DNA from: an uncultured Eubacteriales bacterium
Lineage (GTDB): Bacteria > Bacillota > Clostridia > Lachnospirales > Lachnospiraceae
Length of the DNA: 64,000 nt
Reading direction: 5' to 3'
Assembly: GCA_900314565.1 (NCBI GenBank)
Contig: OMVU01000003.1
Span: 44,341 to 108,340 of the forward strand
Positions within the stretch are counted from its first letter, which is position 1. Every line of letters begins with the position of its first letter. Under the pieces are notes generated by a model. The model saw only the letters and a program-made list of their open reading frames with translations. It had not been told where the DNA came from and searched no databases. Position numbers and translations under genes: made by a program. Shown here piece after piece: positions 12,408-57,821 of this stretch.

Positions 12408-14144
12408 ATGAAATTCAATGAGCAGTTAAGTACCTATCTTCATTCTGTCTCTGCCACGCAAAAAGAGCTGGCGGAATGCTCCGGCCTGAGCACGGCAACG
12501 ATCAGCAGGTTCCGTTCCGGAAAAAGGGAGCCCGCTTATAACAGCAAAGAACTCGAAGACCTTGCCCGGGCACTCACAGATCTCGCGGAAAAAAAGCAGA
12601 TCCCGATCGGTTCCTTTGAAGAAGTCTATCAGACTCTGCGGGATTCCGTGGAGGATCTGCTTCGTGTGGATCATGACGTTTTTCTTGGAAATCTGAATTA
12701 TCTCCTGAAGTACCTCGGTGTCAGGAACACGGAGCTGGCCGGCGGGATCCACAGTGATCTGTCGCACGTCTCCCGGATCCTGGCGGGGACCAGCAATCCG
12801 GGGAACACCAACATTTTCATCCATGAGGTGGCGACCTATCTTGCCATGCGCTACTCGGGAAGCAGTGAGCTCGAATCGATCGCAAAGCTCCTCGGCGTGA
12901 ACACTTCCGAGATCTCCACGTCCGCCGGACTGCGGGATCATATCGTGTACTATCTCGGCTCACATGCGCATACCGAAACGGACGACTCTTTTCCCCGGTT
13001 CCTGGCTGCTCTGGATACGTTCGACCTGAATGATTATCTGAAATCAGTACATTTCGACGAGATCAAAGTGCCCTCTTCGATACCGCATCTCCCTACGCGA
13101 AAAGAGTACTACGGTATCAAAAAAATGATGGAGAGCGAGATCGACTTTATGAAGACGACCGTTCTCTCCAAGTCAAATGAGGACTGTATTCTGTACAGCG
13201 ATATGCCTCTTGAAGAGATGGCATCCGATCCTGAATTTCCGAAAAAATATATGCTTGGCATGGCACTCATGCTGAAGAAAGGCCTTCATCTCCATCAGAT
13301 CCACGACGTGAACCGGCCTTTCCCGGAAATGATGCTGGGTCTCGAGAGCTGGATCCCTCTTTATATGACAGGGCAGATCTCGCCATATTATCTTCCCACT
13401 TCTCAGAATCAGGTGTTTCTGCATTTTCTGAAAGTGTCCGGCGTTGCTGCGCTCGAAGGAACTGCCATCGCGGGGCACCAGGCTTCCGGAAGGTATGTGC
13501 TCTACCGCTCCAAAGAAGATGTGAAGCATTATCAAGTCCGCGCAAAGCAGCTTCTTTCGAAAGCGCATCCGCTCATGGATATTTACCGGCAGGATAAGGC
13601 AGAACTCTTTCATAAGAAGCAAAGGCAGGCATTCGCCGGCAGCAGCTGCAAAATAATCTGTTCGAACCTTCCTGTTTACTTCCTCCCGGAAGAGCTCCTT
13701 CTCGGAGTACTGGAGAGAGCAAAAGCGAACAGAAAAAACCGGGCTGCCATTCTGCAGTATTACAGGAGTTCGCAGGACGTGCTGCAGACACTGCTCAGAG
13801 AGCACACGGTGCATCTGGTCGTGCCTGCGCCCGATGCCGCTTCGTTCGAATCCGGCGCACCCGGTCTCGCTCTCGCCGATCTCTTTCTGGATAAAGAAAT
13901 CTCTCTTACCTATGAAGAATATGCCGCCTGTATAAAAGCATTGAGGAAGATGGAGGAAGAAAATGAGAACCTGCAGCTGGAATTCGATCCTTCTCCCATA
14001 TTCCATCACATCAATATCTGCATCATCGGTGATAAATCGGTCATCGTCTCAAAGGAGAAGAGCCCGACCATCCACTTTGTGATCCATCATAAAAAGATGA
14101 TCAGGGCTTTCCGGAACTTCATTCCGCCGATCGTTGACAAATGA
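12408..14144 (+). CDS. Large protein with two N-terminal helix-turn-helix modules, function unknown
   Basis: The 578-aa protein begins with an XRE-like HTH (residues 1-50: SATQKELAECSGLSTATISRFRSGKREP). A second HTH-like segment follows at about residues 90-150 (NYLLKYLGVRNTELAGGIHSDLSHVSRILAG). The remaining 400 residues are soluble and match no family I recognise; there is no membrane segment or evident catalytic motif. GAGGTG lies before the ATG. The gene is alone and oriented away from the surface protein, so it could regulate that gene or itself. The stop codon lies in the first unit of a 54-bp repeat array. DNA binding is likely, the role of the large C-terminal part unknown. Confidence 0.75.
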   Translation: MKFNEQLSTYLHSVSATQKELAECSGLSTATISRFRSGKREPAYNSKELEDLARALTDLAEKKQIPIGSFEEVYQTLRDSVEDLLRVDHDVFLGNLNYLLKYLGVRNTELAGGIHSDLSHVSRILAGTSNPGNTNIFIHEVATYLAMRYSGSSELESIAKLLGVNTSEISTSAGLRDHIVYYLGSHAHTETDDSFPRFLAALDTFDLNDYLKSVHFDEIKVPSSIPHLPTRKEYYGIKKMMESEIDFMKTTVLSKSNEDCILYSDMPLEEMASDPEFPKKYMLGMALMLKKGLHLHQIHDVNRPFPEMMLGLESWIPLYMTGQISPYYLPTSQNQVFLHFLKVSGVAALEGTAIAGHQASGRYVLYRSKEDVKHYQVRAKQLLSKAHPLMDIYRQDKAELFHKKQRQAFAGSSCKIICSNLPVYFLPEELLLGVLERAKANRKNRAAILQYYRSSQDVLQTLLREHTVHLVVPAPDAASFESGAPGLALADLFLDKEISLTYEEYAACIKALRKMEEENENLQLEFDPSPIFHHINICIIGDKSVIVSKEKSPTIHFVIHHKKMIRAFRNFIPPIVDK

Positions 14145-14318
14145 ACTGCACCTGCGCGACCATATTCCGCCTGCAAAAACGTTCAGTAAGTTTGATGAAC
14201 TTTGTAAACACGACCATGTTCCATCCGCGAAAGCACTCAGTCAATTTGATGAACTTTGTAAATGCGACCATGTTCCGCCTGCAAAAACGTCCGATCAGTT
14301 TGTCGAACCTGTCGAGGA
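14140..14318 (+). repeat. 54-bp tandem repeat starting at the stop codon of the HTH gene
   Basis: Units begin CGACCATRTTCC at 14157, 14211 and 14265. Each ends GATGAACTTTGTAAA or a variant, and the gene tail AAATGAACT...CGACCAT (stop TGA at 14142-14144) aligns with that unit end. The 54-base period keeps frames open, so two short overlapping frames exist, but no ribosome site supports translation. Confidence 0.85.
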
Positions 14319-14408
14319 TTTTCATTTTCAGCGGACTTTTATTGAAGTAATATGCACAAAATGATACTATGAAAACAGATTAAAAAACGTATCCTGTTTC
14401 TAATGTAT

Positions 14409-14513
14409 TGCTCAGACTGCGGACAGCGTTTACGTTCCCCGCAGGCACTCACGACGCAAAAGACGGGATTTCTGCGTCAGAGATCAGATCCTTCGATGCA
14501 GACAGTCTGAGCT
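14409..14513 (+). promoter_or_regulatory. Possible structured leader before the 936-aa flavoprotein
   Basis: CTCAGACTG near 14412 is complementary to CAGTCTGAG near 14505 and would close a loop of about 85 bases just upstream of the gene at 14538. The loop contains TTTCTGCGTCAGAGATCA, the dispersed motif also seen at 764-780. No promoter was identified with confidence. The stretch 14319-14408 shows nothing recognisable. Confidence 0.35.
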
Positions 14514-14537
14514 GCTTAAAAATCAAGAGAGGTCACT

Positions 14538-17348
14538 ATGGGAAAAAGTATTGAAGAATGGAAAATCGGCGATCCCATGATCAACGAGCGGGATTACTGG
14601 CAGGACCCCAACTACGTCGCCCCCGACAAGGAAAAGGAAAAGATGGTCCTGAAGCTCGCGAGCATCATAACGGACCGCTATGTAAAAAAATTTACGGGAA
14701 CGATCAACAACAGGGATCCGGAATACTGGATGCTGGACATGATCCTCACAAAGGAGCAGGTCCGCTTCCTTCTGAATTTCAAGAAAACGCGCGTACCCTA
14801 CACCATCAGGGAGCTTGCCCGCATCAACAAAATGTCCATTAAGCACACGAAGGACATGGTGAAAGAACTCTGCTGGATCGGCGTCGTCGAGATGACGCGC
14901 GAAGGTGAGGACAAGCACAAAGAGTATAATCTGCCGATCTTCGTCCCGGGCTCCGCGGAATTCATGATGATGCAGCCCGCCCTCACGGACAAGTTCCCGC
15001 AGCTTGCCACCTTCTTCAACCTGATGACACAGCTTCCGCTCGGCGGCATCACCCAGATGGTCCCAGAGGGCGGCTCCGGTATCGGCATGCATGTCATCCC
15101 GGTCGAGAAGGCCATCAGCATGGAGAACAAATCCGTCTCCATCGAACATCTCTCCCACTGGCTTGAGAAGTATGATAAGTTCGGTGTCGCCGAGTGTTCC
15201 TGCCGCAAGCAGCAGTGCATGCGCGGAGAGGGATCCGGCGAGGTACGCGGAGAGTTCTGTATCGCCTGCGGCGATCTCGCCGAATATGAGTATGACCGCG
15301 GAATCGGCCGCAATATTACGAGGGAAGAAGTCTATGAGATCCTCGAGCGCGCTGAGCGTCACGGCTATGTCCACCAGATCACCAACATTGACGGCGAGGA
15401 TAAGATCGTTGCCATCTGCAACTGCGCCGTAGGCGTCTGCAACGCCCTGCGCACGTCCCAGCTCTACAACACGCCGAACATGTCTGCTTCCGCTTACCGC
15501 GCGCACGTGGAGAAAGAGAAATGCGTCGCCTGCGGAAAGTGCGTGGAGGTCTGTCCTGTCGGCGCGGCCAAGCTCGGCCAGAAGCTCTGTAAGAAGGACG
15601 GCTCTGCTGTCACGTATCCGAAATCCGAGCTCCCGAACGCAAAGGTCTGGGGACCGGACAAATGGAATTACAACTATCGCGAGGATGTCCGTATCCATTG
15701 CTACGACACCGGAACATCGCCCTGCAAGACGGCATGTCCGGCCCACCTGGCCATCCAGGGGTATATCAAGATGGCGTCGGAAGGACGTTTCCTCGACGCT
15801 CTGAAGCTCATTAAGCAGGACAATCCGCTCCCGGCTGTCTGTGGCGCAGTCTGCAACCGCCGCTGCGAGGACGCCTGTACGCGCGGAACCATCGACCAGC
15901 CGCTCGCGATCGACGAGATCAAGAAGTATATCGCAGCCCTCGATCTGAACAGCGAAGAACGCTACATCCCCTTCTGCGAGAAGCACGACGGCGGTTTCTG
16001 GGGCGACGAGTATAAGATTGCAGTCATCGGTGCAGGTCCGGCAGGTCTCTCCGCGGCCTATTACCTGAGGCTCAACGGGTATCCGGTCACTGTCTTTGAG
16101 AAAAATAAAAAACCCGGCGGCATGCTGACCTACGGCATCCCGTCCTACCGCCTCGAGAAGGACGTCATCGACGCCGAAGTGGACGTGATCCGCGAGATGG
16201 GCGTTGAATTCAAATGCGGCGTTGAAATCGGTAAGGACATAACGATCGAAGAGCTCCGGAAAGAGGGCTACAAGGCCTTCTTCGTGGCGATTGGCGCGCA
16301 GGGCGGCCGTCTCGCAGGTGTCCCGGGTGAAGACGCAGAGGGTGTAGAAACGGGTGTGGATTTCCTGAGAAGAAATAATCATGACCACGAATCCGCCACC
16401 CTCACGGGCGATACGGTGGTCATCGGAGGCGGAAACGTCGCAGTCGACGTTGCACGCACCGCTGTCCGCGCCGGAAACGGAAAGGTCACGATGATCTGCC
16501 TCGAAGGCCCGGACGAAATGCCGGCGGCCCACGACGAGGTCGAGGAGGCAAAAGAAGAAGGCATCTGCGTGATCAACGGCTGGGGTCCGAAGGAGATCCT
16601 CACCGAGAACGGTCACGTGACAGGCGTCCTCTTCAAAAAGTGCACATCCGTCAAGGATGCGGACGGCCGCTTCAACCCGCAGTACGATGAAAACGAGACC
16701 ATGACCCTTGCCTGCACGAACGTGCTGCAGTCCATCGGTCAGTCGATCCTCTGGGGAGACCTCCTCGCCGGCACAAAGGTCGAACTGAACCGCAACGGGA
16801 CCGCCGTGGCGGATCCGGTCACCCGGCAGACGGCGGAACCGGATATCTTCGTAGGCGGAGATGTCTTTACCGGACCGCGCTTTGCCATCGACGCAATCGC
16901 AGCAGGACGGGAAGGCTATGACTCGATCAACCGTTTCGTGCATCCGGGCAATTCCCTGACGATCTCCCGCGACCTCAGGAATTTCGTAGAACTCAACAAG
17001 GACGACATTCTCGTCGAGACCTTTGACAACGCGAAGCGCCAGATCCCCGGCAGAAAAGCAGGGATCGCCACCGAGACCTATGAAGACCTCCGTCTCTGCC
17101 TGACACCTGAGCAGGTGCAGACCGAGGCTGCAAGGTGCCTCGGATGCGGCGCGACTACCGTTGACGAGAACCGCTGCATCGGCTGCGGCCTGTGCACGAC
17201 AAGGTGTGAATTCGACGCGATCCACCTTGAGCGGACGCATCCGGATGCGAGCACCATGGTAACGGCAGAGAAGAAATTCAGCAAGATCGCGCCCTATGTC
17301 CTGAAGAGGGCCGGTAAGATCGCGATCAATAAGGTGACACGTAAATAA
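14538..17348 (+). CDS. Fe-S flavoprotein: Cys-rich N-terminal region fused to GltD-like NAD(P)H oxidoreductase
   Basis: The 936-aa cytoplasmic oxidoreductase has an N-terminal 160 residues that look like a winged-helix (ARINKMSIKHTKDMVKELCWIG). A Cys-rich segment follows (CSCRKQQC, CIACGD, CNCAVGVCN), then a ferredoxin site CVACGKCVEVCPVGAAK. From about residue 380 it matches glutamate synthase beta (GltD) type: CKTACPAHLAIQGYI, CGAVCNRRCEDAC, FAD site VIGAGPAGLSAAYY, NAD(P) site VIGGGNVAVDVART. It ends with CLGCG and CIGCGLCTTRCEF. GltD-like modules pass electrons from NAD(P)H to a partner; there is no glutamate synthase large subunit here, so the acceptor is unknown. AGAGAGGTCACT precedes the ATG, and a strong terminator follows. 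Confidence 0.85.
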   Translation: MGKSIEEWKIGDPMINERDYWQDPNYVAPDKEKEKMVLKLASIITDRYVKKFTGTINNRDPEYWMLDMILTKEQVRFLLNFKKTRVPYTIRELARINKMSIKHTKDMVKELCWIGVVEMTREGEDKHKEYNLPIFVPGSAEFMMMQPALTDKFPQLATFFNLMTQLPLGGITQMVPEGGSGIGMHVIPVEKAISMENKSVSIEHLSHWLEKYDKFGVAECSCRKQQCMRGEGSGEVRGEFCIACGDLAEYEYDRGIGRNITREEVYEILERAERHGYVHQITNIDGEDKIVAICNCAVGVCNALRTSQLYNTPNMSASAYRAHVEKEKCVACGKCVEVCPVGAAKLGQKLCKKDGSAVTYPKSELPNAKVWGPDKWNYNYREDVRIHCYDTGTSPCKTACPAHLAIQGYIKMASEGRFLDALKLIKQDNPLPAVCGAVCNRRCEDACTRGTIDQPLAIDEIKKYIAALDLNSEERYIPFCEKHDGGFWGDEYKIAVIGAGPAGLSAAYYLRLNGYPVTVFEKNKKPGGMLTYGIPSYRLEKDVIDAEVDVIREMGVEFKCGVEIGKDITIEELRKEGYKAFFVAIGAQGGRLAGVPGEDAEGVETGVDFLRRNNHDHESATLTGDTVVIGGGNVAVDVARTAVRAGNGKVTMICLEGPDEMPAAHDEVEEAKEEGICVINGWGPKEILTENGHVTGVLFKKCTSVKDADGRFNPQYDENETMTLACTNVLQSIGQSILWGDLLAGTKVELNRNGTAVADPVTRQTAEPDIFVGGDVFTGPRFAIDAIAAGREGYDSINRFVHPGNSLTISRDLRNFVELNKDDILVETFDNAKRQIPGRKAGIATETYEDLRLCLTPEQVQTEAARCLGCGATTVDENRCIGCGLCTTRCEFDAIHLERTHPDASTMVTAEKKFSKIAPYVLKRAGKIAINKVTRK

Positions 17349-17361
17349 ACGAACAATTCGG

Positions 17362-17392
17362 CGGGGAGGATGAAAAATCCTCCCCGTTTTTT
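17362..17392 (+). terminator. Rho-independent terminator
   Basis: A perfect 10-bp stem CGGGGAGGAT/ATCCTCCCCG with a 5-base loop is followed by six T. It lies 14 bases after the flavoprotein stop codon. Confidence 0.95.
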
Positions 17393-17535
17393 ACGCACTT
17401 CGGGTACACACTTTCGTTTCCTTTTGCAATTTACAGCATCTCGCTTTCCGCCTTTCCGGGAAGGCAAAAGGGACACCACCAATTTAAAGTCCTGAAATAT
17501 GTTCTCAAAAAATTGTATGCTAACTAATACATTTC

Positions 17536-21551: not shown

Positions 21552-24071
21552 ATGAAGGCTTTCAAAATCAAAAAAGACCTGTACTGGACCGGTGTCCTTG
21601 ATCCGGAGCTGCGTGTATTTGACATCATCATGGAGACAAAGTACGGTACGTCCTACAATTCCTATCTGCTCACGGGCAGCGAAAAGACGGCACTCTTTGA
21701 GACTTCAAAGCTCGCCTTTTTCGATGAGATGGTCAGCTACATTGAATCCGTAGTCTCCGTCTCACAGATCGACTATCTGATCATGGATCACACGGAGCCC
21801 GATCACGCCGGATCGATCGAAAAACTGCTGGAGCTGAACCCGCATATCACGATCGTCGCCACAGGAACTGCGATCCAGTTCCTCAAACACATTATAAACA
21901 CTGACTTCAACAGTATTGCCGTTCACGACGGCTCCACGCTCTCCCTCGGAGACAAGACCCTGGAATTCATGGTCCTTCCGAATCTTCACTGGCCGGACAC
22001 CATGTACACCTACGTCCAGGAAATAAAGACCCTCTTCCCCTGCGACTCTTTCGGCTCCCACTTTGCAGCCGAGGGCATTCTCAGGTCAAGCGTGACGGAC
22101 GAGGCCGGCTACGCGGAAGCGACCAAATATTACTTCGACTGTATCATCGGTCCCTTTGCGTATCCGTATATGTATAACGCCCTGGAACGCATAAAGGATC
22201 TGGAAATCGAGAACATCTGCTGCGGCCACGGGCCGGTCCTCGATTCTCACTTCGACCAGATCTTCGGCTGGTATCGTGAATGGTGCAAGCCGCCGGCAAA
22301 GAAAGAAAAGAAGCTGGTCGTGATGCCGTATGTCAGTGCCTACGGCTATACAAAACAGCTGTCCGAGGAAATCGCGAAGGGCGTCTCCGATGCGGGAGCG
22401 GAAGTTCACCGCTATGACCTCGTCTTCGATGACAAGACAAATCTGGCGGCCGATATAGCAGCCGCTGACGGCTATCTGTTCGGTACGCCCACGATCCTGG
22501 GCGAGGCTCTGGAGCCGGTATACAACCTGACCCTGGGTATGTATCCGCCGGTATTTAAGGGAAGACTGGCCTCCGCATTCGGAAGCTACGGATGGTCCGG
22601 AGAGGGCGTGCCGCATATTATCGAGAGACTCAAACAGGTCCGTCTCCGTGTTCTGGACGGCTTCCGGGTCCGCTTTAAACCCGATGCCAATCAGCTGGCG
22701 GACGCCTATGATTTCGGCTATAACTTCGGATGTGTCCTTCTCAAAAAGGAACAGAAGAAGCAGACTGCGAAGGGCGCCAGAACACTTGTCAAGTGCCTTG
22801 TATGCGGCGCGATCTTCGACTCCTCCATCGAGGAATGTCCGGTCTGCGGCGTAGGTCCGGAAAACTTTGTCCCTGCAGGAGAAGCCGGAACAGGGTATCA
22901 GAAAGATACGGATCAGAATTATCTTATCCTGGGAGGCGGAATTGCCGCTCTCGAAGCGGCCCGCGCAATCAGAGAGCGTGATAAGACAGGCACAGTCATC
23001 ATGATTTCTGAGGAGAAACATCTGCCCTACAACAGGCCGATGCTTACCAAAGCGATGCTCTCGGATTTCTCCGACAATCAGATGGCTGTCGAGCAGCCCT
23101 CCTGGTTCGAAGAGAACAACATCATCCTGCTCACGGAGACCAAGGTGGAATCAATCGACGCGAAGGCAAAGACCGTGGCCGTCGGAGGATATACATACGC
23201 CTATGACAAGCTGATCTATGCACTCGGCGCACACTGCTTTGTCCCGCCTTTCAAGGGACATGATCTCGACAAAGTCGTATCTATCCGGACCATCGAAGAC
23301 GCGGCCAAAGTAAAGGCTATGGTCCCGAAGATCAGGACCGCGGCGGTCATCGGCGGCGGTGTCCTCGGTCTCGAGGCAGCCTGGACGCTCCGCAGGGCAA
23401 AGATCGACGTGACCGTCATCGAGGGTGCGCCCGCTCTCATGGCAAGACAGCTGAATCCCTCCGCTTCGGCGATGATCAAGACGATCGCGGAGGACTGCGG
23501 CATCAAAGTCTATACGGCGGCAAGCACCTCGGAGATCAACGATGAGGGCGTCCTCCTCGCTGACGGTACACAGATCCCGGCCGATCTTGTCATCGTCTCG
23601 ACAGGCGTCCGCGGAAATCTCGGTCCTGCGCAGGATGCCGGACTTGCGATCGGCCGCTCGATCATCGTGAACGACCACATGGAGACAAATCTTGCAGACG
23701 TTTACGCCTGTGGAGACTGCGCGGAATATAACGGCATCAACTACGCTCTCTGGAGCCAGTCCGTCGATCAGGGCAAGACCGCCGGCGCGAACGCTGCCGG
23801 TGATGACCCGGCCTATGAGACCGTGGACGGTGCACTTGCATTCAACGGCATGAACACTTCCCTCTTCGCGATCGGCGATAACGGAAGCGATCCGGCAAAG
23901 CTCTACAAGACCGTTGAGACGACAGACCTCCGCCGCAGACAGTACGAGAAGTATACATTCGACAAGAACCGTCTGGTCGGCGTCATTCTGATCGGCGATA
24001 CGTCAAGGCTTGCCGAGCTGACCATGAAGGTCAAGGAGCACGCGAAGTTCAACGATGTGATCAAGATCTGA
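21552..24071 (+). CDS. Flavodiiron protein fused to rubredoxin and NADH:rubredoxin oxidoreductase
   Basis: This 839-aa protein detoxifies O2 (to water) or NO (to N2O), carrying its own electron chain. The metallo-beta-lactamase diiron domain (residues 1-250) keeps the ligands in HTEPDHAG, LPNLHWPDT, LFPCDSFGSHF and CCGHGPV. The flavodoxin domain follows (about 255-395). A short rubredoxin-like module (CLVCGAIFDSSIEECPVCG, about 415-440) comes next. The last 390 residues are a pyridine nucleotide-disulfide oxidoreductase with LGGGIAALEAARAIR, VIGGGVLGLEAAWTLR and VYACGDCAEYNG. The ATG at 21552 follows GAGAGGAGC. The stop codon lies inside the first unit of the 51-bp array downstream. Confidence 0.93.
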   Translation: MKAFKIKKDLYWTGVLDPELRVFDIIMETKYGTSYNSYLLTGSEKTALFETSKLAFFDEMVSYIESVVSVSQIDYLIMDHTEPDHAGSIEKLLELNPHITIVATGTAIQFLKHIINTDFNSIAVHDGSTLSLGDKTLEFMVLPNLHWPDTMYTYVQEIKTLFPCDSFGSHFAAEGILRSSVTDEAGYAEATKYYFDCIIGPFAYPYMYNALERIKDLEIENICCGHGPVLDSHFDQIFGWYREWCKPPAKKEKKLVVMPYVSAYGYTKQLSEEIAKGVSDAGAEVHRYDLVFDDKTNLAADIAAADGYLFGTPTILGEALEPVYNLTLGMYPPVFKGRLASAFGSYGWSGEGVPHIIERLKQVRLRVLDGFRVRFKPDANQLADAYDFGYNFGCVLLKKEQKKQTAKGARTLVKCLVCGAIFDSSIEECPVCGVGPENFVPAGEAGTGYQKDTDQNYLILGGGIAALEAARAIRERDKTGTVIMISEEKHLPYNRPMLTKAMLSDFSDNQMAVEQPSWFEENNIILLTETKVESIDAKAKTVAVGGYTYAYDKLIYALGAHCFVPPFKGHDLDKVVSIRTIEDAAKVKAMVPKIRTAAVIGGGVLGLEAAWTLRRAKIDVTVIEGAPALMARQLNPSASAMIKTIAEDCGIKVYTAASTSEINDEGVLLADGTQIPADLVIVSTGVRGNLGPAQDAGLAIGRSIIVNDHMETNLADVYACGDCAEYNGINYALWSQSVDQGKTAGANAAGDDPAYETVDGALAFNGMNTSLFAIGDNGSDPAKLYKTVETTDLRRRQYEKYTFDKNRLVGVILIGDTSRLAELTMKVKEHAKFNDVIKI

Positions 24072-24296
24072 CCATTGCGGGCGCGAAAAGCTCGCATAAT
24101 CCGGTGTTGCAATCGGGATCTGATTCTCGCTGACGTAAAAGCACACAAGGTCCGGTGATTCTATCGGGATCTGATCGTCGCTGACGTGAAAGCACACAAG
24201 GTCCGGTGTTGCGATCGGGATCTGATCCTCGCAGGCGCAAAAAGCATGCAAGGCCCGGTGATGCAATCGGAATCTGATCCTCGCAGGCAGACAAAG
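24060..24296 (+). repeat. 51-bp tandem repeat that begins inside the 3' end of the FDP gene
   Basis: Units start at 24060 (gene tail, ATCAAGATCTGACC), 24112, 24163, 24214 and 24266. Every unit has ATCRRGATCTGA or a close form, so the stop codon TGA of the gene is repeated in each. The gene tail matches the array unit at most positions over about 33 bases. Confidence 0.9.
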
Positions 24297-24305
24297 AATT
24301 CAAAA

Positions 24306-24402
24306 AAGGCTGTCGCATCAGGCAATATCATCCCTATCAATAACAGATGCTTGCATATAGCTTCTGTTATTTAGTGGTGTCAAGCCTTAGTGCGACAGCC
24401 TT
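24306..24402. mobile_element. 97-bp element with perfect 12-bp terminal inverted repeats (MITE-like or terminator)
   Basis: The ends are AAGGCTGTCGCA (24306-24317) and TGCGACAGCCTT (24391-24402). An inner hairpin AATAACAGA/TCTGTTATT is centred near 24355. A-run before and T-run after mean it could also terminate transcription in either direction. No coding capacity. It resembles a non-autonomous insertion element; no matching transposase is in the window. Confidence 0.6.
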
Positions 24403-24403
24403 A

Positions 24404-24540
24404 TTTTTATTCTTTATCGCGCAATACTCGTGATTTTAATCATGAGATACACGCGCAAAGTGAAGCTCGTTTTCATCGTGAGATACGCGCGCAAAGTGAA
24501 GCTCGTTTTCATCGTGAGCACAATCTCGCGATGAAGAATA
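24404..24540. repeat. 33-bp direct repeat and dispersed AATCACRAGTATTGCGCGAT motif
   Basis: Two copies of about 33 bp (GAGATACRCGCGCAAAGTGA, AGCTCGTTTTCATCGT) lie at 24449-24515. Reading leftwards, 24404-24440 matches 62655-62692 (GATYAAAATCACRAGTATTG followed by GCGCGATRAAGAATAAAA). Confidence 0.75.
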
Positions 24541-24545
24541 GATCT

Positions 24546-24633
24546 TATCGGAAGTTCCGAAAGGAACTCCCGATAAACGGCTTGCAGCGCAAACCGTATT
24601 ATGATTATGAGGTTCGCGAAGCATTTCTCATAA
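24546..24633 (+). repeat. Three-stem-loop module, copy B2
   Basis: Stem 1 24546-24575 (AGTTCC/GGAACT), stem 2 24577-24597 (ACGG.TTGC/GCAA.CCGT), stem 3 24605-24633 (TTATGAG/CTCATAA). ATTATGATTA and TTCGCGAAGC match B1 while the stems differ in a compensating way. It runs into a GCCTCCGGCGGATC motif at 24639 that is repeated inverted at 25425-25450, and into hairpin D2 (24691-24719). Confidence 0.82.
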
Positions 24634-24744
24634 TAAAAGCCTCCGGCGGATCTCAGCCGCGCAAAGAAGAAGGTGCTTCGCCCCCCGCGTGGCGCAGCAA
24701 GAACGCGAGGCGTTCTTGGATGAGTCATTTCATATTTGGATAAG

Positions 24745-25310
24745 CACAGGAACTTTCTTCGAAATTGTTCCCGTGAATTTGCTTTAGGTACAATATGTAG
24801 ATTTCCTGTGAATGTCCCCCATGGATTTCTGTCTTCGTGAGACGTTTTAGGTACATGGGACTAATTTCTATTAATTGTCCTCCATAGATTTCTGATCTGC
24901 CGAGGCTTTTAGGCACAGACAGCAGATTTCTTGTGATTGTACTACATATATTAGAGAAATCCAGGGGAACAAATCTGAGGAAAAACACCGCTGTACCTAA
25001 TCACCCGGAATACTGTAAAAAACCATGGAGAACAATTCTTCGAATTCCTTTTGCTGTACCTAATCCCCCGAAATGCCGCAAAAACCATGGAGAACAATTC
25101 TTCGAATTCCTTTTGCTGTACCTAATCCCCCAGGAATATTGCAAAACCATGGAGAACAATTCTTCGAATTCCTTTTGCTGTACCTTATCCCCCGGAATAC
25201 TGTAAAAACCATGGAGAACAATTCTTCGAATTCCTTTTGCTGTACCTAATCGCCCGGAATACTGCAAAAACCATGTGGAACAAATCTGCGAAAATCCCTT
25301 TCTGTACCTA
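24745..25310. repeat. 62-bp tandem array with older inverted units on its left side
   Basis: CTGTACCTAATC occurs at 24991, 25054, 25116, 25178, 25240 and 25302 (with one T/A variant), period 62-63. The core CCATGGAGAACAATTCTTCG is nearly invariant in the middle units; the only variable part is a segment of about 18 bases. Left of 24930 the units are diverged and in opposite orientation (TTAGGTACA at about 24785, 24848 and 24909, with TCCYCCATRGATTTCTG). The nearly invariant unit and missing unique spacers rule out a CRISPR array. Confidence 0.9.
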
Positions 25311-25344
25311 ATCGACAGAATTATTGTGAGTTGCAACGTAGAAT

Positions 25345-25452
25345 AACAGCCTCCGACGAATCGCGTTACGTGCGCTTTGGAAGGCACTGTGCTCCACGCA
25401 GGGTGCAAAGTACCTTCCAAATTGTGCGGCTGCGATCCACCGGAGGCTTTAA
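25345..25452. repeat. Long imperfect hairpin bounded by GCCTCCG / CGGAGGC
   Basis: GCCTCCGACGAATCGC pairs with GCGATCCACCGGAGGC, and TTGGAAGGCACTGTGC with GCAAAGTACCTTCCAA. Its ends match the element at 24639, so it is another dispersed palindrome. The dispersed motif AATCTCTGACGC follows at 25451. Confidence 0.75.
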
Positions 25453-25472
25453 TCTCTGACGCAAATTTGTTT

Positions 25473-25556
25473 CATGTTCACAAATTTGTATCCTGTTCAC
25501 ATATTTGTTTCCTGTTCACAAATTTGTATCCTGTTCACATATTTATATACTGTTCA
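25473..25556. repeat. 19-bp tandem repeat, about 4.5 units
   Basis: Units of TGTTCACAAATTTGTATCC / TGTTCACATATTTGTTTCC alternate with period 19 from 25475. It lies between the long hairpin and the 3' end of paaK, and a motif GAATTCTGCGTCAAAGATCA follows at 25604. Confidence 0.9.
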
Positions 25557-25680
25557 AAAGAAACGTTTCACTTTGCGCATTCATCTCCCTGCCCAAGTCA
25601 CGAGAATTCTGCGTCAAAGATCAATACGATGGTCTATTATTTCACCGGAACCATTCGTTAATCAGATCACACAAATCAGA

Positions 25681-26919
25681 TCAATCATATCTCTCATCGA
25701 ACACACGCTTTGACTTCTTTTCGCTCCTCGGAAGCAGGCCTGCCTCGACGACCTTGACGATTGGTGTGAATCCGATTGCAGCCTTGGTCTTCGCCGCGAT
25801 TTTCTTGCTCAGCTCAGCGAAGTCAACATGTCCGCTGACCGCCTCAACATAGAGACGCATCGTATCGCGCCCGTCGAGATGGGAAATACGGATCTGATAC
25901 TCGCTCGAAGCCTCCTCGAACTTGGCGAGGACCTCCTCGATCTGTGCCGGGAATACATTGACACCCTTGATCTTGATCATATCGTCCGTACGGCCCTTGA
26001 TGATGTCGATGCGCGGATAAGACCTGCCGCACTCGCATTTTCCGGGAATGATCCTGGACAGGTCATGTGTGCGGTAGCGAATGAGCGGAGCCCCCTCCTT
26101 GACCAGTGTCGTGATGACGATCTCGCCCCACTCGCCGTCCGGCAGATTCTTTCCCGTTACCGGATCGATGATCTCAAGATAGAGATAATCATCCCAGATA
26201 TGCATATAATCGGAGCCCTTGCAGTTGATGCCGATTCCCGGACCGTAAATCTCTGTCAGACCGTAAATGTCATAGAGCTCGATCCCGAGGATCCCCTGAA
26301 TGCGCTCACGCATGGCCTTGCTCCACCGCTCGGAACCGATCACGCCCTTCTTCAGATGGATCTTATCCCGGATACCCCGGCGCTCGATCTCCTCCGCCAG
26401 AAGCAGCGCGTAGGAAGACGTCGAGCAGAGGACCGTCGTCTTGAGGTCCATCATCATCTGCAGCTGCTTTTCCGTATTTCCGGGACCCATGGGGACAGCC
26501 ATCGCGCCGAGTTTTTCGCAGCCGTTCTGAAAACCGATTCCGGCAGTCCAGAGACCATAGCCGGGTGTGATCTGGATGCGGTCGCCTTTGCCGATTCCCG
26601 CTGTCTCGTAGCAGCGGCGGAACATTTCTCCCCAGTCATCGACGTCTTTCGCCGTATAGGGAATGATGACCGGAAGACCAGTAGTTCCCGACGAGGAATG
26701 GATGCGGACGATCTCCTCCTCGGGAGCGGTCATAAGTCCCAGCGGGTACGCATCTCGCAGATCCGCTTTCTCAGAGAACGGAAGCTTCTCAAACTCCTCC
26801 GCATCGGCAACATGTGTGATCCCTGCTTCCTTGAGCTTCTTTCCATAGAAACTTCCGGCAGTGACCAGCGCGTTGATGCGGTCATTGACCTGTGCGAGCT
26901 GTCTCTCATTGATTCTCAT
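25681..26919 (-). CDS. paaK: Phenylacetate-CoA ligase family enzyme
   Basis: The 412-aa AMP-forming ligase joins arylacetates (phenylacetate, indoleacetate) to CoA, or works in reverse in an arylpyruvate pathway. The ANL-family P-loop is visible as IHSSSGTTGLPVIIPYT near residue 75, with YDIYGLTEIYGPG near 220 and IDIIKGRTDDMIKIKGVNVFP near 300, the hinge that marks PaaK. The C-terminal domain (from about 320) is normal. It lies 99 bases downstream of iorBA on the same strand, and this pairing supports a role with IorAB. AAGGAG precedes the ATG. The stop codon is part of a short direct duplication TGATCTGATT. Confidence 0.92.
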   Translation of the reverse strand: MRINERQLAQVNDRINALVTAGSFYGKKLKEAGITHVADAEEFEKLPFSEKADLRDAYPLGLMTAPEEEIVRIHSSSGTTGLPVIIPYTAKDVDDWGEMFRRCYETAGIGKGDRIQITPGYGLWTAGIGFQNGCEKLGAMAVPMGPGNTEKQLQMMMDLKTTVLCSTSSYALLLAEEIERRGIRDKIHLKKGVIGSERWSKAMRERIQGILGIELYDIYGLTEIYGPGIGINCKGSDYMHIWDDYLYLEIIDPVTGKNLPDGEWGEIVITTLVKEGAPLIRYRTHDLSRIIPGKCECGRSYPRIDIIKGRTDDMIKIKGVNVFPAQIEEVLAKFEEASSEYQIRISHLDGRDTMRLYVEAVSGHVDFAELSKKIAAKTKAAIGFTPIVKVVEAGLLPRSEKKSKRVFDERYD

Positions 26920-32596: not shown

Positions 32597-32657
32597 AAAA
32601 CCACTATACACAGCAGTCTCGGAAAGTTTCGCATCTGCCATATACAGTGGTTCTTTT
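32597..32657. terminator. Terminator hairpin downstream of the GH1 gene
   Basis: AACCACTATA pairs with TATACAGTGGTT across a loop of about 38 bases; T-rich tails follow on both strands. The segment 32367-32596 has no supported gene. Confidence 0.5.
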
Positions 32658-32683
32658 TCGTTTCTGGAACGCCCTTTCCGGGC

Positions 32684-34359
<1,676 letters not shown>

Positions 34360-48367: not shown

Positions 48368-49153
48368 ATGACAGATCTTACGATCCGCTTCCAATCATAC
48401 TGTCTCGGAAAATCGACAACGGTCCACGTCATCCTTCCTACGATCATGAATCCGTTGGAAAACCCCGGCCGGATCTCCTTTAAAGGACCTTTCCGGACCC
48501 TTTATTTCCTGCACGGAGCCCAGGACGATCCCGAGGATGTCATTGCCCGGACCAGGATCGGGGACTATGCCATGGAGAACAATCTGGCGGTCATTCTGCC
48601 TGAAGGGGATAACGCTTTCTATCTGGACCTGGTCCCGGGATTCGGCTATGAAAGCTTTGTAACAGATGAACTCATCGAAGCGACCCGGGAGCTTCTCCCG
48701 CTCTCAGCGAAACGCGAGGATACCTTTATCGGCGGCTACTCGATGGGCGGCTACGGGGCTGTGCGCGCATCGCTTCTGCACCCGGAGAAATACGCAGCGT
48801 GTATCTGTCTGTCCGGCGCGCTTGAAATCAAGCGGACCGCGTATTTTGTCCGCGCGCTTACTCCTCTGATTCCGGAGCAGCTGCGCGAGCCAAAGACGCT
48901 TCCCGGAAGCGAGTACGATCTGCTTCATCTGCTTGATAAGATCCGCATTTCCCAAAATGAAACGCAGGTCTCCTATCCGTCCTTCTATCTTGCCTGCGGC
49001 AGCGACGATCCGTTCGTTTCCCAGACAAGAGCCTTCTTAGAGGCCGCCGAGGGCAGTCCGCTCCGCATGGAAAGCCATATCACGCCCGGCGGACATGACT
49101 GGCCATACTGGGATACAGCCATATCCAAGGCGATGCAGTGGCTGAATCTCTGA
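48368..49153 (+). CDS. Esterase D / tributyrin esterase-like alpha/beta hydrolase
   Basis: A 261-aa cytoplasmic esterase. The nucleophile elbow is FIGGYSMGGYGAVRA, the Asp lies in CGSDDPFVS and the His in TPGGHDWPYWD. RTLYFLHGAQDD is the oxyanion strand. It belongs to the esterase D / S-formylglutathione hydrolase group; short-chain acyl or acetyl ester cleavage is likely. GAAAGGAG lies before the ATG. A hairpin at 49178-49216 follows. Confidence 0.88.
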   Translation: MTDLTIRFQSYCLGKSTTVHVILPTIMNPLENPGRISFKGPFRTLYFLHGAQDDPEDVIARTRIGDYAMENNLAVILPEGDNAFYLDLVPGFGYESFVTDELIEATRELLPLSAKREDTFIGGYSMGGYGAVRASLLHPEKYAACICLSGALEIKRTAYFVRALTPLIPEQLREPKTLPGSEYDLLHLLDKIRISQNETQVSYPSFYLACGSDDPFVSQTRAFLEAAEGSPLRMESHITPGGHDWPYWDTAISKAMQWLNL

Positions 49154-49177
49154 TTCTGAAATAAATGCAAAACAAAA

Positions 49178-49216
49178 CGAGCCTCCGGCTGTCCCTTCGT
49201 ACAGTCAGAGGCTCGT
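49178..49216 (+). terminator. Hairpin after the esterase gene
   Basis: ACGAGCCTCCGGCTGT (from 49178) pairs with ACAGTCAGAGGCTCGT (to 49216) with two mismatches. It lacks a T-run, so termination is only likely. Confidence 0.55.
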
Positions 49217-49291
49217 ATACTGTTCTGCATATTGTATTCGCTGATTTCTCAGAAGAAGCAGCGTACATCGATGATCCGGGAGATCTCCGGT

Positions 49292-49393
49292 GGATCCACG
49301 AATGTCCATTCGGAAATCCCGAAACAATCTGATCACTTATTGGGAATCCCTGAATATCCATCCGGGAACCCGTAAACAATCTGATTGCTTATC
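49292..49393 (-). repeat. 51-bp direct repeat containing the smsB stop codon
   Basis: Two units (49342-49393 and 49292-49341) match at most positions: GATAAGCAATCAGATTGTTT versus AATAAGTGATCAGATTGTTT on the - strand, then CGGG..TTCCGGATGGAYATTC. The stop codon TAA of smsB is inside the first unit and is kept in the second. Confidence 0.88.
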
Positions 49394-50306
49394 TGAGGAA
49401 GCCCTGAATGATCGTCTCCTCAGCCTCCTTCTCGGAGAGGCCGAGAGTCATGAGCTTCATCAGCTGATCCCCGGCGATCTTTCCGATTGCAGCTTCGTGG
49501 ATCAGGGAAGCCTCCACGTTGGTGGCCTTCAGCTGCGGGGTTGCAAGGATCACGCCGTGGTCCATGATGATGGAATCGCACTCGGCATGACCGGAGCAGG
49601 CCGCGTTGCCTGAAATCCCGAGGACTACTTCCTGATAGCTCTCATCCTTGGCGACGCCGCGGCTTATGATATCGCAGCTGCTGCCGTCCCCGTTCATCTC
49701 GACATTGATCTGGGCAACAGCCTTCTGATCCTTGTTCGTCAGGATCTTGTCGTGGATGATCAGGGATGCGTTCTCTTTCATAGTTGCACGCGTGATGCGT
49801 GTAGTGTCATCGATTCCGCCGATCTGGGAGGTCTCCATCTCCATCGTCGCGCCTTCCTCCAGTTCAACGACTGTCGTCGGATTCATAAGGCGCTTCCCGG
49901 TGCCTGTTCCCTCCCCGTAATGCTTCTCGATATAGCGGACCTTCGCGTTCTTTCCGACAAAAAAGCTGTGCACGCCGTCATGCTCGGAGTCCCCGCCGCC
50001 GCAGTTGGAAATACCGCATCCGGCGATGATGGTCACGTCACTGTCTTCTCCGATAAAGAAGTCATTGTAGACCAGCTCCTTAAGACCGGTCTCACTGATG
50101 ATGACCGGGATATGCACACTTTCCTTTTTCGTTCCCGGCTTAATAATGATATCGATGCCCTGCTTGTCTTCCTTGGTGACGATATCGATATTCGCCGTAG
50201 TATTTCTGGCCGCACTCGTGCCATTGCTCCTTATGTTGTATGCGCCCTGCGGCAGAGCGTCGAACGCAGCTACTTCGCGCAGCAGATTCCTCTGAATCGC
50301 ATCCAT
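49389..50306 (-). CDS. smsB: Minimal SufB/SmsB-type Fe-S cluster scaffold
   Basis: A 305-aa SufBD-core protein, shorter than SufB of Suf systems (about 460) and without its N-terminal extension. The beta-helix core is recognisable: HDGVHSFFVGKNAKVRYIEKHYGEG, GYS-like GISGNAACSGHAECDSIIMD and the conserved C-terminal EASLIHEAAIGKIAGDQLMKLMTLGLSEKEAEETII. With the ATPase next door it forms the two-gene SmsCB system that anaerobes use to build Fe-S clusters. GGAGG lies before the ATG. No sufS or sufU is in the window. Confidence 0.88.
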   Translation of the reverse strand: MDAIQRNLLREVAAFDALPQGAYNIRSNGTSAARNTTANIDIVTKEDKQGIDIIIKPGTKKESVHIPVIISETGLKELVYNDFFIGEDSDVTIIAGCGISNCGGGDSEHDGVHSFFVGKNAKVRYIEKHYGEGTGTGKRLMNPTTVVELEEGATMEMETSQIGGIDDTTRITRATMKENASLIIHDKILTNKDQKAVAQINVEMNGDGSSCDIISRGVAKDESYQEVVLGISGNAACSGHAECDSIIMDHGVILATPQLKATNVEASLIHEAAIGKIAGDQLMKLMTLGLSEKEAEETIIQGFLR

Positions 50307-51263: not shown

Positions 51264-51343
51264 CAGATCCCTGATCTCCCCGGTCCCACGGTAACCGGAG
51301 AGCAGCCCGCGCATTCTTTACGCGCGCCGGACAGGGCCTTTTT

Positions 51344-52978: not shown

Positions 52979-53114
52979 TGCGTTCTCCTGATCCTTTCCT
53001 GTGAGATACGCTCTGCTGCCGTCGGCGCAGTCCGAATATCTGCAGACGTTCAAGCGCCCTCGCGTGCCTGGCACGCTTCCCTTTTGCTTCGATCGGGCAA
53101 AAGTGCAGTGAATG

Positions 53115-53147
53115 CGTTCATCTCAGTGGAAGTATCCACTCCCACTG
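53115..53147 (-). repeat. TCTCAGTGG / CCACTGAGA hairpin between treB and treC
   Basis: ATCTCAGTGG and CCCACTGAGAC enclose a short loop. The same ends occur in the 92-bp element at 55381-55472 upstream of treB. It lies in the 203-base treB-treC gap and could modulate readthrough or processing. Confidence 0.6.
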
Positions 53148-53181
53148 AGACAGATTTCCAGGTACAAAAGCATTTGCTTTT

Positions 53182-55095: not shown

Positions 55096-55380
55096 TTTTT
55101 CCTCCTATTTTACTCCTTCTGAACCCCTTTTGACTGTGAAAAATGCGCCTTCACCGCTCCTCATTGTTTCTCGCTGCTTTTTCACGTTCTGCCTGTATGA
55201 TCGGAGCGCCCGGGCGTCTTACCCGGTCCGCCTGCCGGCGGAAAGGCGGGGTTCAGGTGCTGCTGTCGATACACCTGTTTCCATGAAAGAGATCGTATTG
55301 CCGTACTCATGATGTGTCTTCAGCTGCGTCTCAAAATGTCATATTCCTTATGTTTCATATTTCATGTCTCATGCTGTTTT

Positions 55381-55472
55381 ATCTCAGTGGGGAAGACCCC
55401 CGCTTCTATAAAGCGGAGGATAAATCAATATCCTGCCCGTCTCAGTGGTGGGTTACAATCCCCCACTGAGAT
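55381..55472. mobile_element. 92-bp element with perfect 12-bp terminal inverted repeats in the treB leader
   Basis: The ends are ATCTCAGTGGGG (55381-55392) and CCCCACTGAGAT (55461-55472). Inside are hairpins around CCGCTTCTATAAAGCGG and GGATAAATCAATATCC and a third TCTCAGTGG half-site at 55440. No coding capacity. It looks like a non-autonomous palindromic element; a close relative sits in the treB-treC gap. Confidence 0.6.
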
Positions 55473-55489
55473 AAACGCTCAGCTCCACA

Positions 55490-55612
55490 ATGCTCCACAG
55501 GAGCATTGCTACGCATGCATAGGCACGCGAGGATGCGCAGGGATTCGGTTTGGAAGATGTCAGCTTGCGCTGACCCGAATCCCGCGCCAATTCTCGCGAG
55601 CGAGAATTGAAT
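55490..55612. repeat. Cluster of three stem-loops in the treB leader
   Basis: ATGCTCCACAGGAGCAT (55490-55506); GATTCGG...CCGAATC (55542-55581) with an inner CAGC/GCTG stem; CAATTCTCGCGAGCGAGAATTG (55588-55609). They lie between the tre promoter and the 92-bp element. Confidence 0.75.
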
Positions 55613-55648
55613 TATCAGGATACAAGTTACAAACCTTCCGCGGTAAAG

Positions 55649-55716
55649 TTGTTTATACAAGTACCCGATGAGCTTAGTATACCTTGTTCAAACAAGTCTG
55701 TCAACATGTTTATACA
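55649..55716 (-). promoter_or_regulatory. Tre promoter with three TreR-like operators
   Basis: On the - strand TTGACA (55699-55704), 17-bp spacer, TATACT (55676-55681). Operator-like palindromes: TGTTTATACA (55707-55716, above -35), CTTGTTCAAACAAG (55683-55696, filling the spacer) and TTGTTTATACAA (55649-55660, below the start). They resemble the TTGTATATACAA type bound by TreR. Confidence 0.8.
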
Positions 55717-55773
55717 TCTTTTTTCGACAAGTTATTTAACCATTTTTTTGACCGGTCAGGGAAAGACCGCCTG

Positions 55774-55820
55774 AAAAAAAAAGACTTTATTCCGTCAGAT
55801 CTTTTGAGCGGAATAAAGCT
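55774..55820 (-). terminator. Terminator upstream of the tre promoter
   Basis: On the - strand AGCTTTATTCCG/CGGAATAAAGT is followed by a run of nine T. It ends the adh-CMD transcription unit. A further GAGGCACCGC/GCGGTGCCTC hairpin is at 55849-55897. Confidence 0.88.
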
Positions 55821-55951
55821 CTCTCAATTAAATACAAAATCTCTGATTGAGGCACCGCTGTGGCGCGCCGGAGGATCCGGCAGCCGGGCGGTGCCTCTTT
55901 ACAAAAGTCTGTCTGCCGATGCAGAACCTGTATGCAGCGAAAGGCTGCTGT

Positions 55952-56506
55952 TTATGAAATTGCATCACGCCATGTCGCCGGCTTGAACTGATCTCTGAGC
56001 GGTAAGAGACGCTTGTCTACATCCACCCCCAGCACGGAGTTGAAATTATTCGTTGCCTGCATCTGCGCTCCGAACCCGACGATAATGATGATCTGCTCAT
56101 CCGTATAAAACTTCCGAAGTCCATCGAGCAGCTCGTTCGATACTTTTGTCGGATCTTTTACGATCTGCTGTCCGAGCTTCTGCAAAAGCTTTTCATTTTC
56201 TTCGGTCTCAAAATTATTCGGATCAAGTCCCAGCTCCCTGAGGTCACTGATAAAGAACAGGGAGCACAGCAGGCAGCCGTTGGTCGTAGAGATGGAATGT
56301 GCATAAATGGTCGCCGCACGCAGTCCGACTGCTTTCTCAAGACTCTCCCACGAGTCATACCAGCCCATAAAAGCCTTGTATGTACCGTAGTCCTGAAGCA
56401 TGACGAGCTTCATATTCGTAATCTTTCCTGCAGCATCGAGTTCCTCGTATGCCTTCCTTGCCTCACCTGTAAGTTCCTCCGGCTGTTTTAAACTGACTCT
56501 TGCCAT
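55952..56506 (-). CDS. Carboxymuconolactone decarboxylase (AhpD-like) family protein
   Basis: A 184-aa alpha-helical CMD-domain protein. The redox motif reads TTNGCLLCSLFFISDL (CxxC, with Ser in place of the usual His near it), so a peroxidase-like or thiol-disulfide role is plausible. AAGGAG is three bases before the ATG at 56512 and nine bases before that at 56506, so either may be the start. It lies 84 bases after the alcohol dehydrogenase on the same strand. Confidence 0.8.
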   Translation of the reverse strand: MARVSLKQPEELTGEARKAYEELDAAGKITNMKLVMLQDYGTYKAFMGWYDSWESLEKAVGLRAATIYAHSISTTNGCLLCSLFFISDLRELGLDPNNFETEENEKLLQKLGQQIVKDPTKVSNELLDGLRKFYTDEQIIIIVGFGAQMQATNNFNSVLGVDVDKRLLPLRDQFKPATWRDAIS

Positions 56507-56590
56507 TTTCATATTCTCCTTTCTCTTAAGAACCTCACTTTTTTCCCGGATTTCCTTTTTTGAAACACTGTCTTCATTAACACACCGTAT

Positions 56591-57751
56591 TTATCTTGCC
56601 AGATTCAGGATTTCCACGATCCCAGATGCATCCAATGGAAGATAATGTCCTACCCTTCCATTCCTGGTCGCCCGTTCCGCCATCACCTCAAAATCCCTGT
56701 CATCTATTCCAAACTCTGCCAGAGTGATCCGAAGACCCAGCTTTCTGAAGAACTCCGACAGTTTTTCAGCGAGGATATATGCCCTTTCCTTCTCCGTATG
56801 ATCATAAGGATCTGCGCCAAAGACCCGGCTGGCCAGAAGCGCCGGACGCCACGGCTTTTTCTCCGCCATATACTTTGTCCAGGCAGTGATGGTGACCGCC
56901 ATCCCCTCGCCGTGGGTGATGTTATACTGCGCTGAAAGCTCATGTTCTATGCGGTGTGAAGCCCAGTCCGCACGTCTTCCTGCATCCAGAAAATTATTGT
57001 GGGCCACACTGGCGAGCCACTGAATTTCCCCTCTTGCATTCACGTCTCCGGGATCTTTCAGGAGCCTGCCGGCATTTAAAAGCAATGCTCTGACCGCACC
57101 CTCGATAAGATAATCTGTTGTGTCGGAATGCCTTTCATCCGAAAAATATCTTTCCAGAAGATGGGTCAATACATCTGCAATTCCGACAAATGTCTGGTAA
57201 GGCGGCAGCCCGACAGTAAACCGCGGATTCATAATGGCAAACTGCGGGATGATCCTGTCGTCCTCAAACCCGAGCTTCCATTCTCCGTTCGAGATAATGG
57301 CTGCGTTCGAGGTCTCGGATCCGCTGGATGCCGTCGTGGCGATTACTCCTACGGGCAGGACCTTATGGGGCGCAACGCCCTTATCAAAGAAATCCCATAC
57401 ATCGCCCTCATAGGGGATTCCAAGCGCCACGGCTTTTGCGGTATCTATGGAGCTTCCGCCGCCCACCGCCAGCACGAAGTCTGCATTTTCCTTTTTCCCC
57501 TGTTCCACCAGTTCTCTGACCAGTTCTACTGAAGGATTCGGCACGACATTTCCGCTTTCCAGCAAATGGATCCCCAGTTCTTTGACCGTCTCCCGAATCA
57601 GGGAATGTATGCCAAGTGTCCTTATAAAGTCTCCGCTGTAGATCAGGAGCAAAGATTTTACCTCATACTGCGTGAGTAGATCAGGGAGAGCTTTTTCGCT
57701 GTCTTCTCCAAAAATGATCCTGGCAGGATTGTAATATTTAAATCCGATCAT
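56591..57751 (-). CDS. Iron-containing alcohol dehydrogenase (butanol dehydrogenase type)
   Basis: The 386-aa NAD(P)H-dependent group III alcohol dehydrogenase reduces aldehydes. The cofactor motif is LAVGGGSSIDTAKAVA, and TTASSGSETSNAAII is the family signature. Metal ligands are in IADVLTHLLERY (Asp, His), HRIEHELSAQYNITHGEGMAV (two His). Length fits BDH/YqhD-like enzymes. It starts 59 bases after metQ; its first codons are part of a 31-bp direct repeat of the metQ stop region. Confidence 0.92.
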   Translation of the reverse strand: MIGFKYYNPARIIFGEDSEKALPDLLTQYEVKSLLLIYSGDFIRTLGIHSLIRETVKELGIHLLESGNVVPNPSVELVRELVEQGKKENADFVLAVGGGSSIDTAKAVALGIPYEGDVWDFFDKGVAPHKVLPVGVIATTASSGSETSNAAIISNGEWKLGFEDDRIIPQFAIMNPRFTVGLPPYQTFVGIADVLTHLLERYFSDERHSDTTDYLIEGAVRALLLNAGRLLKDPGDVNARGEIQWLASVAHNNFLDAGRRADWASHRIEHELSAQYNITHGEGMAVTITAWTKYMAEKKPWRPALLASRVFGADPYDHTEKERAYILAEKLSEFFRKLGLRITLAEFGIDDRDFEVMAERATRNGRVGHYLPLDASGIVEILNLAR

Positions 57752-57821
57752 GATTTTTCTCTCTCCTCAATCAGAGCTGCTGTTCCGTCGATTGCAATAT
57801 TCAGATCCGATCATGATTTTT
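57728..57821 (-). repeat. 31-bp direct repeat linking the metQ stop codon and the adh start codon
   Basis: 57728-57758 and 57791-57821 match at 28 of 31 positions and are 63 bases apart. In the right copy TCATGATCGGAT is the metQ stop (TCA TGA). In the left copy the same letters supply the adh start (ATG ATC GGA). Confidence 0.9.

Follow-up and report, generated by a model that had tools for sequence, protein, structure and literature searches.

Along a 64,000-nucleotide stretch of contig OMVU01000003.1 (assembly GCA_900314565.1; hereafter the window, with positions counted from its first letter), the stop codons of several genes lie inside the first unit of a direct repeat that continues into the 3' flank, and the question raised by this locus is whether gene ends are copied outward by a system of their own, whether the copies are kept for a function, or whether duplications last there for the reason that they do little harm. 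The window belongs to a Lachnospiraceae-like genome of 4.22 Mb in 191 contigs with 3.84% contamination (G000). We consider it likely, with a probability of roughly 0.8, that its clade is heavily laden with short tandem duplications, which are tolerated at 3' ends where the first copy stays intact, and that 5' ends are protected. The stop-repeat pattern is best explained by ordinary mutation together with tolerance and not by a new system.

Duplication rates at stops, 3' flanks and starts

Gene ends were taken from a simple hexamer-based caller made for this analysis (unpublished), in which starts are less certain than stops. Duplications with a lag of at most 200 bp were counted in a 1.108 Mb sample of G000 (counts marked 708 kb refer to its first part), and stops were counted only with a 3' flank of at least 60 bp; the sampled stretches were chosen by contig number or match location, not at random, and relatives were compared with one genome per species. 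A stop was scored as outward if any duplication covering it ran outward (21 in G000 and 9 in G030, or 20 and 8 if only the best-scoring one is taken), whereas the lag count, the separate G030 test and the counts for near-relative loci given below use the best-scoring duplication only.

Short-lag duplications cover 6.1% of intergenic bases in G000 and 0.26% in Markov-resampled intergenic DNA, and repeats in general exceed chance in this genome. Stops with an outward duplication numbered 21/585 in G000, 7/143 in G041 and 9/195 in G030, against 12/2925 in resampled G000 intergenic DNA (five rounds), and the corresponding counts for starts were 6/604, 1/145 and 3/211. Pooled over the three genomes, 36 of 903 stops and 10 of 947 starts were duplicated outward (Fisher p 6.6e-5). 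The stop is not distinguished from the DNA that follows it: its rate in G000 resembles that found at +15 (25/585), +30 (28/585), +45 (23/585) and +60 (21/579), and in the pooled comparison, which comprises the 903 stops with a flank of at least 66 bp, 4.0% at the stop compares with 5.2% in the flank interior, a difference of -1.25 points (95% CI -2.6 to +0.1). Since the stop rate is like the flank rate and the start rate is lower, the asymmetry is one between 3' and 5' gene ends, with no peak at stops. The preliminary description of the window had presented stops as a recurring position for repeats; arrays largely lack such an enrichment genome-wide, and stops lose their special standing.

A dedicated process that copies gene 3' ends outward could be suspected from the direction of the copies at stops, 17 outward and 1 inward in the first 708 kb, but similar rates in both directions are found within intergenic DNA, with 21 outward and 20 inward copies at +60 in G000, and we regard such a process as very unlikely. 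Over the stop, inward copies are rare: 4/585 in G000, compared with 18-20 of 579-585 further out (+30 to +60), and 0/143 in G041, compared with 3-9 of 140-143 over that range. The outward bias at the stop follows from the fact that inward copies break the gene, and stops are found in repeats more often than starts because only outward duplications leave the gene intact.

In the E. coli K-12 control, none of 140 stops and none of 169 starts was duplicated, and arrays numbered 1.0 per 100 kb as opposed to 11.3. The small samples from other Lachnospiraceae and Clostridia (nine loci; 0/71 stops, 0/82 starts) and from Bacillaceae and similar bacteria (nine loci; 0/77 stops, 0/111 starts) also gave none, and five loci (L043, L044, L046-L048) were assigned to no group. 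The load of tandem duplications varies widely within the genus, intergenic coverage being 6.1, 8.2 and 9.2% in G000, G041 and G030 and 2.6% in G001.

Stop codons and repeats in the window

Gene calling gave 51 genes in the window, and the identities proposed in the preliminary description broadly hold: a CDF transporter, a fusion of FDP with a reductase, a PaaK-like ligase, a GH1 6-phospho-beta-glucosidase, a SufB/SufD/SmsB-like protein and a MetQ-like lipoprotein. Only one NCBIfam model, that of the CDF superfamily, is matched above the curated cut-off, and for the HTH gene there is no more than a weak match. The closest relatives of the FDP protein, among the matches listed, come from metagenome-assembled genomes of Lachnospiraceae and other Clostridia, several of which carry names of rumen or ruminant-gut samples.

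For each stop, we scored the best ungapped repeat running through it with a copy at most 200 bp downstream and compared the score with those obtained when the 3' flank was resampled 1000 times under a first-order Markov model. The arrays are present where they had been reported, and the stop lies inside the downstream-repeated unit at FDP, GH1, smsB and metQ (scores 44, 56, 27 and 31; 0/1000 resamplings each). The cases of paaK and CDF, both with a score of 12 (9/1000 and 6/1000), are marginal even before allowing for the 51 genes of the window, and that of HTH does not stand (score 7; 682/1000), as the stop of the HTH-like gene (12408-14144) is separated by 12 bp from the genuine 54-bp array of three copies that follows it (14157-14318, plus strand).

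The FDP-reductase fusion gene (21552-24071, plus strand; gene call and NCBIfam matches to flavodiiron/flavorubredoxin and NADH-dependent reductase domains) ends with TGA at 24069-24071, and a 51/52-bp array reaches across and beyond this stop (24037-24290), such that the segment 24037-24130, stop included, recurs at 24191-24284 (73%). An inverted repeat that resembles a terminator, GGCTGTCGCA/TGCGACAGCC, follows at 24308-24405. The GH1 gene lies on the minus strand (32749-34221, stop TGA 32749-32751; gene call and NCBIfam), with a 13-bp array of six units (32683-32763), the first of which is the coding end with its stop, and a terminator-like inverted repeat further on (32599-32652), similar to one in the sister species G034. 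The end of the coding sequence, GAGATTATTGACTGA in the window and GAGATCATCGACTGA in G034, is repeated in the units (GAGATCATYGACTGA) and is evidently where the unit comes from. The SufB/SufD/SmsB-like Fe-S assembly gene (49389-50306, minus strand; all NCBIfam matches under curated cut-offs) stops with TAA at 49389-49391 and has a 47-bp segment in two copies 52 bp apart (49294-49392), with the stop in the gene-side copy; a terminator-like hairpin lies past the duplication (49179-49214). These three terminator-like features were read by eye from the sequence.

The metQ repeat had been misread. It is a tandem duplication of a 63-bp unit (57727-57852, minus strand; copies 57790-57852 and 57727-57789), which covers the metQ/dehydrogenase junction and reaches from the final codons of metQ through the spacer into the opening codons of the next gene, a dehydrogenase, whose start codon it includes. 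The stop of the metQ-like lipoprotein gene (57811-58671, minus strand), TGA at 57811-57813, overlaps the copied ATG. In G022 the junction is single-copy and metQ ends in TAA ahead of the ribosome-binding site, where the window has no stop. At the two marginal stops, both on the minus strand, a 14-bp two-copy repeat (25660-25687) includes the paaK stop (25681-25683), and the CDF stop (781-783) abuts the head of a dispersed element (768-783), from which a 15-bp array extends (660-776; 660-783 in all). The claim that units are unrelated between loci apparently holds, with the exception of CDF, where the unit has grown from the element head. A common unit family behind the arrays was considered and rejected, as, of 58 noncoding arrays sampled, only 4 overlap the dispersed element.

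The window is a locally dense patch: it has nine noncoding arrays where the rest of the sample would predict 3.0 (P 0.004). Outward duplication affects 3/36 of its stops with a 3' flank of at least 60 bp, the expected number being 1.2 (P 0.12); metQ, with a flank of 59 bp, is not counted. In a draft genome of so many contigs and with some contamination, repeats might be artefacts of assembly, but repeat copies in the window mostly differ by ~5-25%, unlike doubled reads, and similar events are found in other genomes, so that this explanation is exceedingly improbable.

Orthologous gene ends in relatives

Among the orthologous ends of the seven genes, 3/58 readable stops are duplicated (score of at least 13), near the genome-wide rate, and one of the three is the shared GH1 case. 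By gene, the counts are FDP 1/20, smsB 0/22, metQ 1/2, GH1 1/4, paaK 0/3, HTH 0/2 and CDF 0/5; two FDP loci were excluded because the contig ends before the stop, and one smsB locus because its match is partial, whereas two other FDP loci and another smsB locus were kept despite short flanks of 12, 90 and 99 bp. Stop-spanning repeats do not, therefore, recur at the same genes in relatives.

The GH1 array has six units in the window genome and two in G034 (98%, with similar flanks), a difference in unit number between sister species seen at this one locus, and is absent from G014, G030 and G022. In G041, smsB (95% identical protein) has a hairpin ~10 bp directly past its stop and no repeat, whereas in the window a similar hairpin lies ~174 bp from the stop with the duplication in between. 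FDP in G041 has a hairpin ~20 bp past the stop, against a gap of ~236 bp in the window, and no repeat through the stop; a different duplication begins 76 bp beyond. GH1 apart, the arrays are unshared, and the repeats of relatives are mostly different ones; relatives thus largely lack the arrays of the window or have others elsewhere, an outcome that the preliminary description had itself named as contrary to its reading. Its suggestion that gene 3' ends are copied outward is borne out by the coding end in the GH1 units and by two independent outward copies of 3' ends, at G011 FDP (lag 67; lacking in G030) and at G030 metQ (lag 29). Separately, the smsB-like gene of G034 (L143) seems interrupted, with a match in two overlapping pieces and a TGA within the first.

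Reading frame, RNA structure and terminators

Downstream copies often repeat the stop triplet, and the GH1 unit of 13 bp, not being a multiple of three, places TGA in successive frames, as might be expected if copies were retained as back-up stop codons. In 35 stop-spanning cases, however, lags divisible by three are not in excess, the remainders 0, 1 and 2 occurring 11, 15 and 9 times. The share of 11/35 is that of chance, which leads us to reject selection for in-frame back-up stops, and selection for multiple stops, which had been proposed, is further contradicted by the lack of a stop excess over the flank. PMC6764699, in its excerpted text, likewise reports no evidence of selection for additional 3' stops in eubacteria. 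Retention as back-up stops is most unlikely.

A role in 3' mRNA structure, or as a spacer that protects the transcript or separates stop from terminator, is suggested by the position of the CDF, FDP, GH1 and smsB arrays between the stop and a terminator-like inverted repeat (read by eye), by gaps wider than those of G041, and by the folding z-scores of the FDP (-1.7) and GH1 (-2.2) flanks. The flanks of HTH (-0.1), smsB (-0.3) and CDF (-1.2) do not follow, the repeats are missing at most orthologous ends, and a neutral insertion, too, is least harmful between stop and terminator. A terminator pattern scan of the smsB flank (48900-49700) called nothing, so that no terminator is confirmed there and terminators remain a reading of inverted repeats. 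Such a role is in our judgement unlikely. A shared 3' RNA fold was rejected as a candidate: the five folded flanks have no common structure excess, which also speaks against the proposed selection for 3' mRNA structure, and no Rfam family matched the window at the gathering threshold. As there is no frame preference and no common fold, and the stretch between stop and terminator is the least constrained, we take the arrays to be mostly neutral.

A probable origin of gene-end repeats in tolerated duplication

Tolerance of tandem duplication would account for these observations as follows. Short duplications (~10-200 bp) would arise by replication slippage or unequal exchange and last where they are harmless. 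In a duplication spanning a 3' end, the first copy would keep the gene and its stop, and inert copies would be added ahead of the terminator, so that it may be tolerated about as often as one wholly within the 3' flank. Duplications at 5' ends probably upset ribosome-binding and promoter spacing and are removed, as their rarity suggests. Stops would fall in first array units, and starts seldom, because 3'-end duplications are tolerated and 5'-end ones removed. Later slippage would alter the number of units, and point mutations would blur the outer copies. The CDF array would have a separate origin, having grown inside the dispersed element that abuts the stop.

Several observations weigh against this account. 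In G030 the depletion of inward copies at the stop is less clear (4/195 against 7-11 at +15 to +60), and in this genome alone the asymmetry of stops and starts is borderline (8/195 against 2/211, p 0.054). The asymmetry is absent from mixed near-relative loci (3/165 stops, 4/185 starts), which have contigs in common with the G041 and G030 samples taken later, and from the repeat-poor congener G001 (3/181 stops, 2/195 starts). In the first 708 kb, coverage of 7.6-8.1% at +10 to +40 after stops is slightly above the ~5.4-6.5% at +50 to +130. The GH1 and FDP flanks, finally, have slightly more favourable folding than shuffled sequences.

A purely permissive process can yield a pattern that looks designed, and tolerated duplication offers a useful null model against reading function into gene-end repeats. 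In a clade rich in short tandem duplications, the evolution of 3' flanks can be traced between sister species.

Relation to known repeats

The arrays resemble bacterial minisatellites or variable-number tandem repeats (VNTR) in their head-to-tail units of 10-150 bp, their diverged copies and the difference in unit number between close relatives (GH1, 6 against 2), but a noticeable share of them begin inside the coding 3' end, with the gene end as first unit. Tandem units longer than ~9 bp, as in minisatellites, are found in the GH1, CDF, FDP and HTH arrays, whereas smsB and metQ are two-copy duplications; the difference in unit number, also characteristic of minisatellites, is found at GH1, at one locus and between species only.

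Close pairs of 10-mers (within 50 nt) are described in the excerpted text of PMC4060949 as mostly over-represented between prokaryotic genes and not within them. Short-range direct repeats concentrated in intergenic DNA are what we also observe, although that text counts per phylum and is silent on gene ends. The share of intergenic bases taken up by short-lag duplications is 6-9% in the present clade, compared with 2.6% for G001 and 2.1% for E. coli. The fail-safe additional stops considered in PMC6764699 are alike in having extra stop triplets past the gene stop, but the repeated stops here have no frame preference. The MITE-like intergenic repeats BOX, RUP and RU (PMC3049150 and PMC2759123) are comparable to the ~70-100-bp intergenic element with inverted ends that the CDF stop abuts; unlike them, it has no parent transposase or target duplication identified here and no Rfam match. 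Among the titles and abstract openings listed by our literature searches, we found no description of stop-centred tandem arrays in bacteria.

A dispersed element at the CDF stop

In G000 the pattern TCTGCGTCARAGAT has 57 occurrences, as opposed to 0 in a reversed control, and a commoner form, TCTGCGTCAGAGAT, is present in 10/42 genomes of the genus, G000 included. Both represent the left end of a 70-100-bp dispersed element with the head TRA|TCTCTGACGCAGAATTC... and an inner inverted repeat; the inverted TTTAATCTCTGACGC...GCGTCAGAGATTAAA is full or nearly full in four copies, and a second, hairpin-rich segment follows in some. A profile search found 76 copies in 1.108 Mb, none wholly within a called gene. 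TAA or TGA comes just before 30 of the 49 noncoding heads (the short head pattern also matched coding DNA 74 times, which was taken as chance and omitted), and in 9 of these 30 the triplet is exactly the stop of a gene, whereas plain use of TAA/TGA sites in permitted DNA would predict 6.1% (p 5e-5, under a null chosen after the heads had been seen). A listing by a loose pattern gave 16 genes, at least one of which (L075) is a false open reading frame inside the element.

The excess of heads at stops is not repeated in G030, where 0/4 heads preceded by TAA or TGA (11 noncoding heads in total) lie at a stop, and G041 has two noncoding heads, neither after TAA or TGA, one of which directly follows a TAG stop. 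At the CDF stop of G034 the element is present without the 15-bp array; in the window the array has grown from the element head. It is conceivable, though we hold it rather doubtful, that a MITE-like element settles exactly at stops (TAA or TGA, then TCTCTGACGC...), forms the 3' flank and has a head that can seed minisatellites, as at CDF. Either such sites are preferred by the element, or an insertion close to a gene end is retained if the leading bases of the element supply the rest of a stop codon.

No direct duplication was noticed at element copies, though no systematic test was made. The Y1-transposase loci do not bear out a conjectured link to IS200/IS605-type transposases: one in nine has a weak partial match to the element (E 1.3e-4), Y1 being the only transposase family searched. 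A plasmid collection searched with one element copy and its surroundings gave no match, nor did Rfam at the gathering threshold for four loci with element copies.

Element copies in the window lie at 768-783, 14448-14486, 24408-24473 (plus) and 25557-25623 (minus). The last two, oppositely oriented, are in the 1.6-kb spacer between FDP and paaK (24072-25680), together with four arrays of different units (51, 36, 62 and 19 bp), the further arrays of this spacer being at 24434-24518, 24990-25313 and 25462-25556. The element also has a second head type, TTTTTATTCTTCATCGCGCAA. The hairpin-rich segment, GCCTCCGGCGGATCGCAGCCGCGC...AAGAACGCCGAGGCGTTCTTGA, was found by pattern in 12 copies, often directly after the dispersed element: at 24639-24730 in the window, at 25340-25450 in the spacer, and in L061, L075, L076, L078, L080, L100, L101, L104, L123 and L138.

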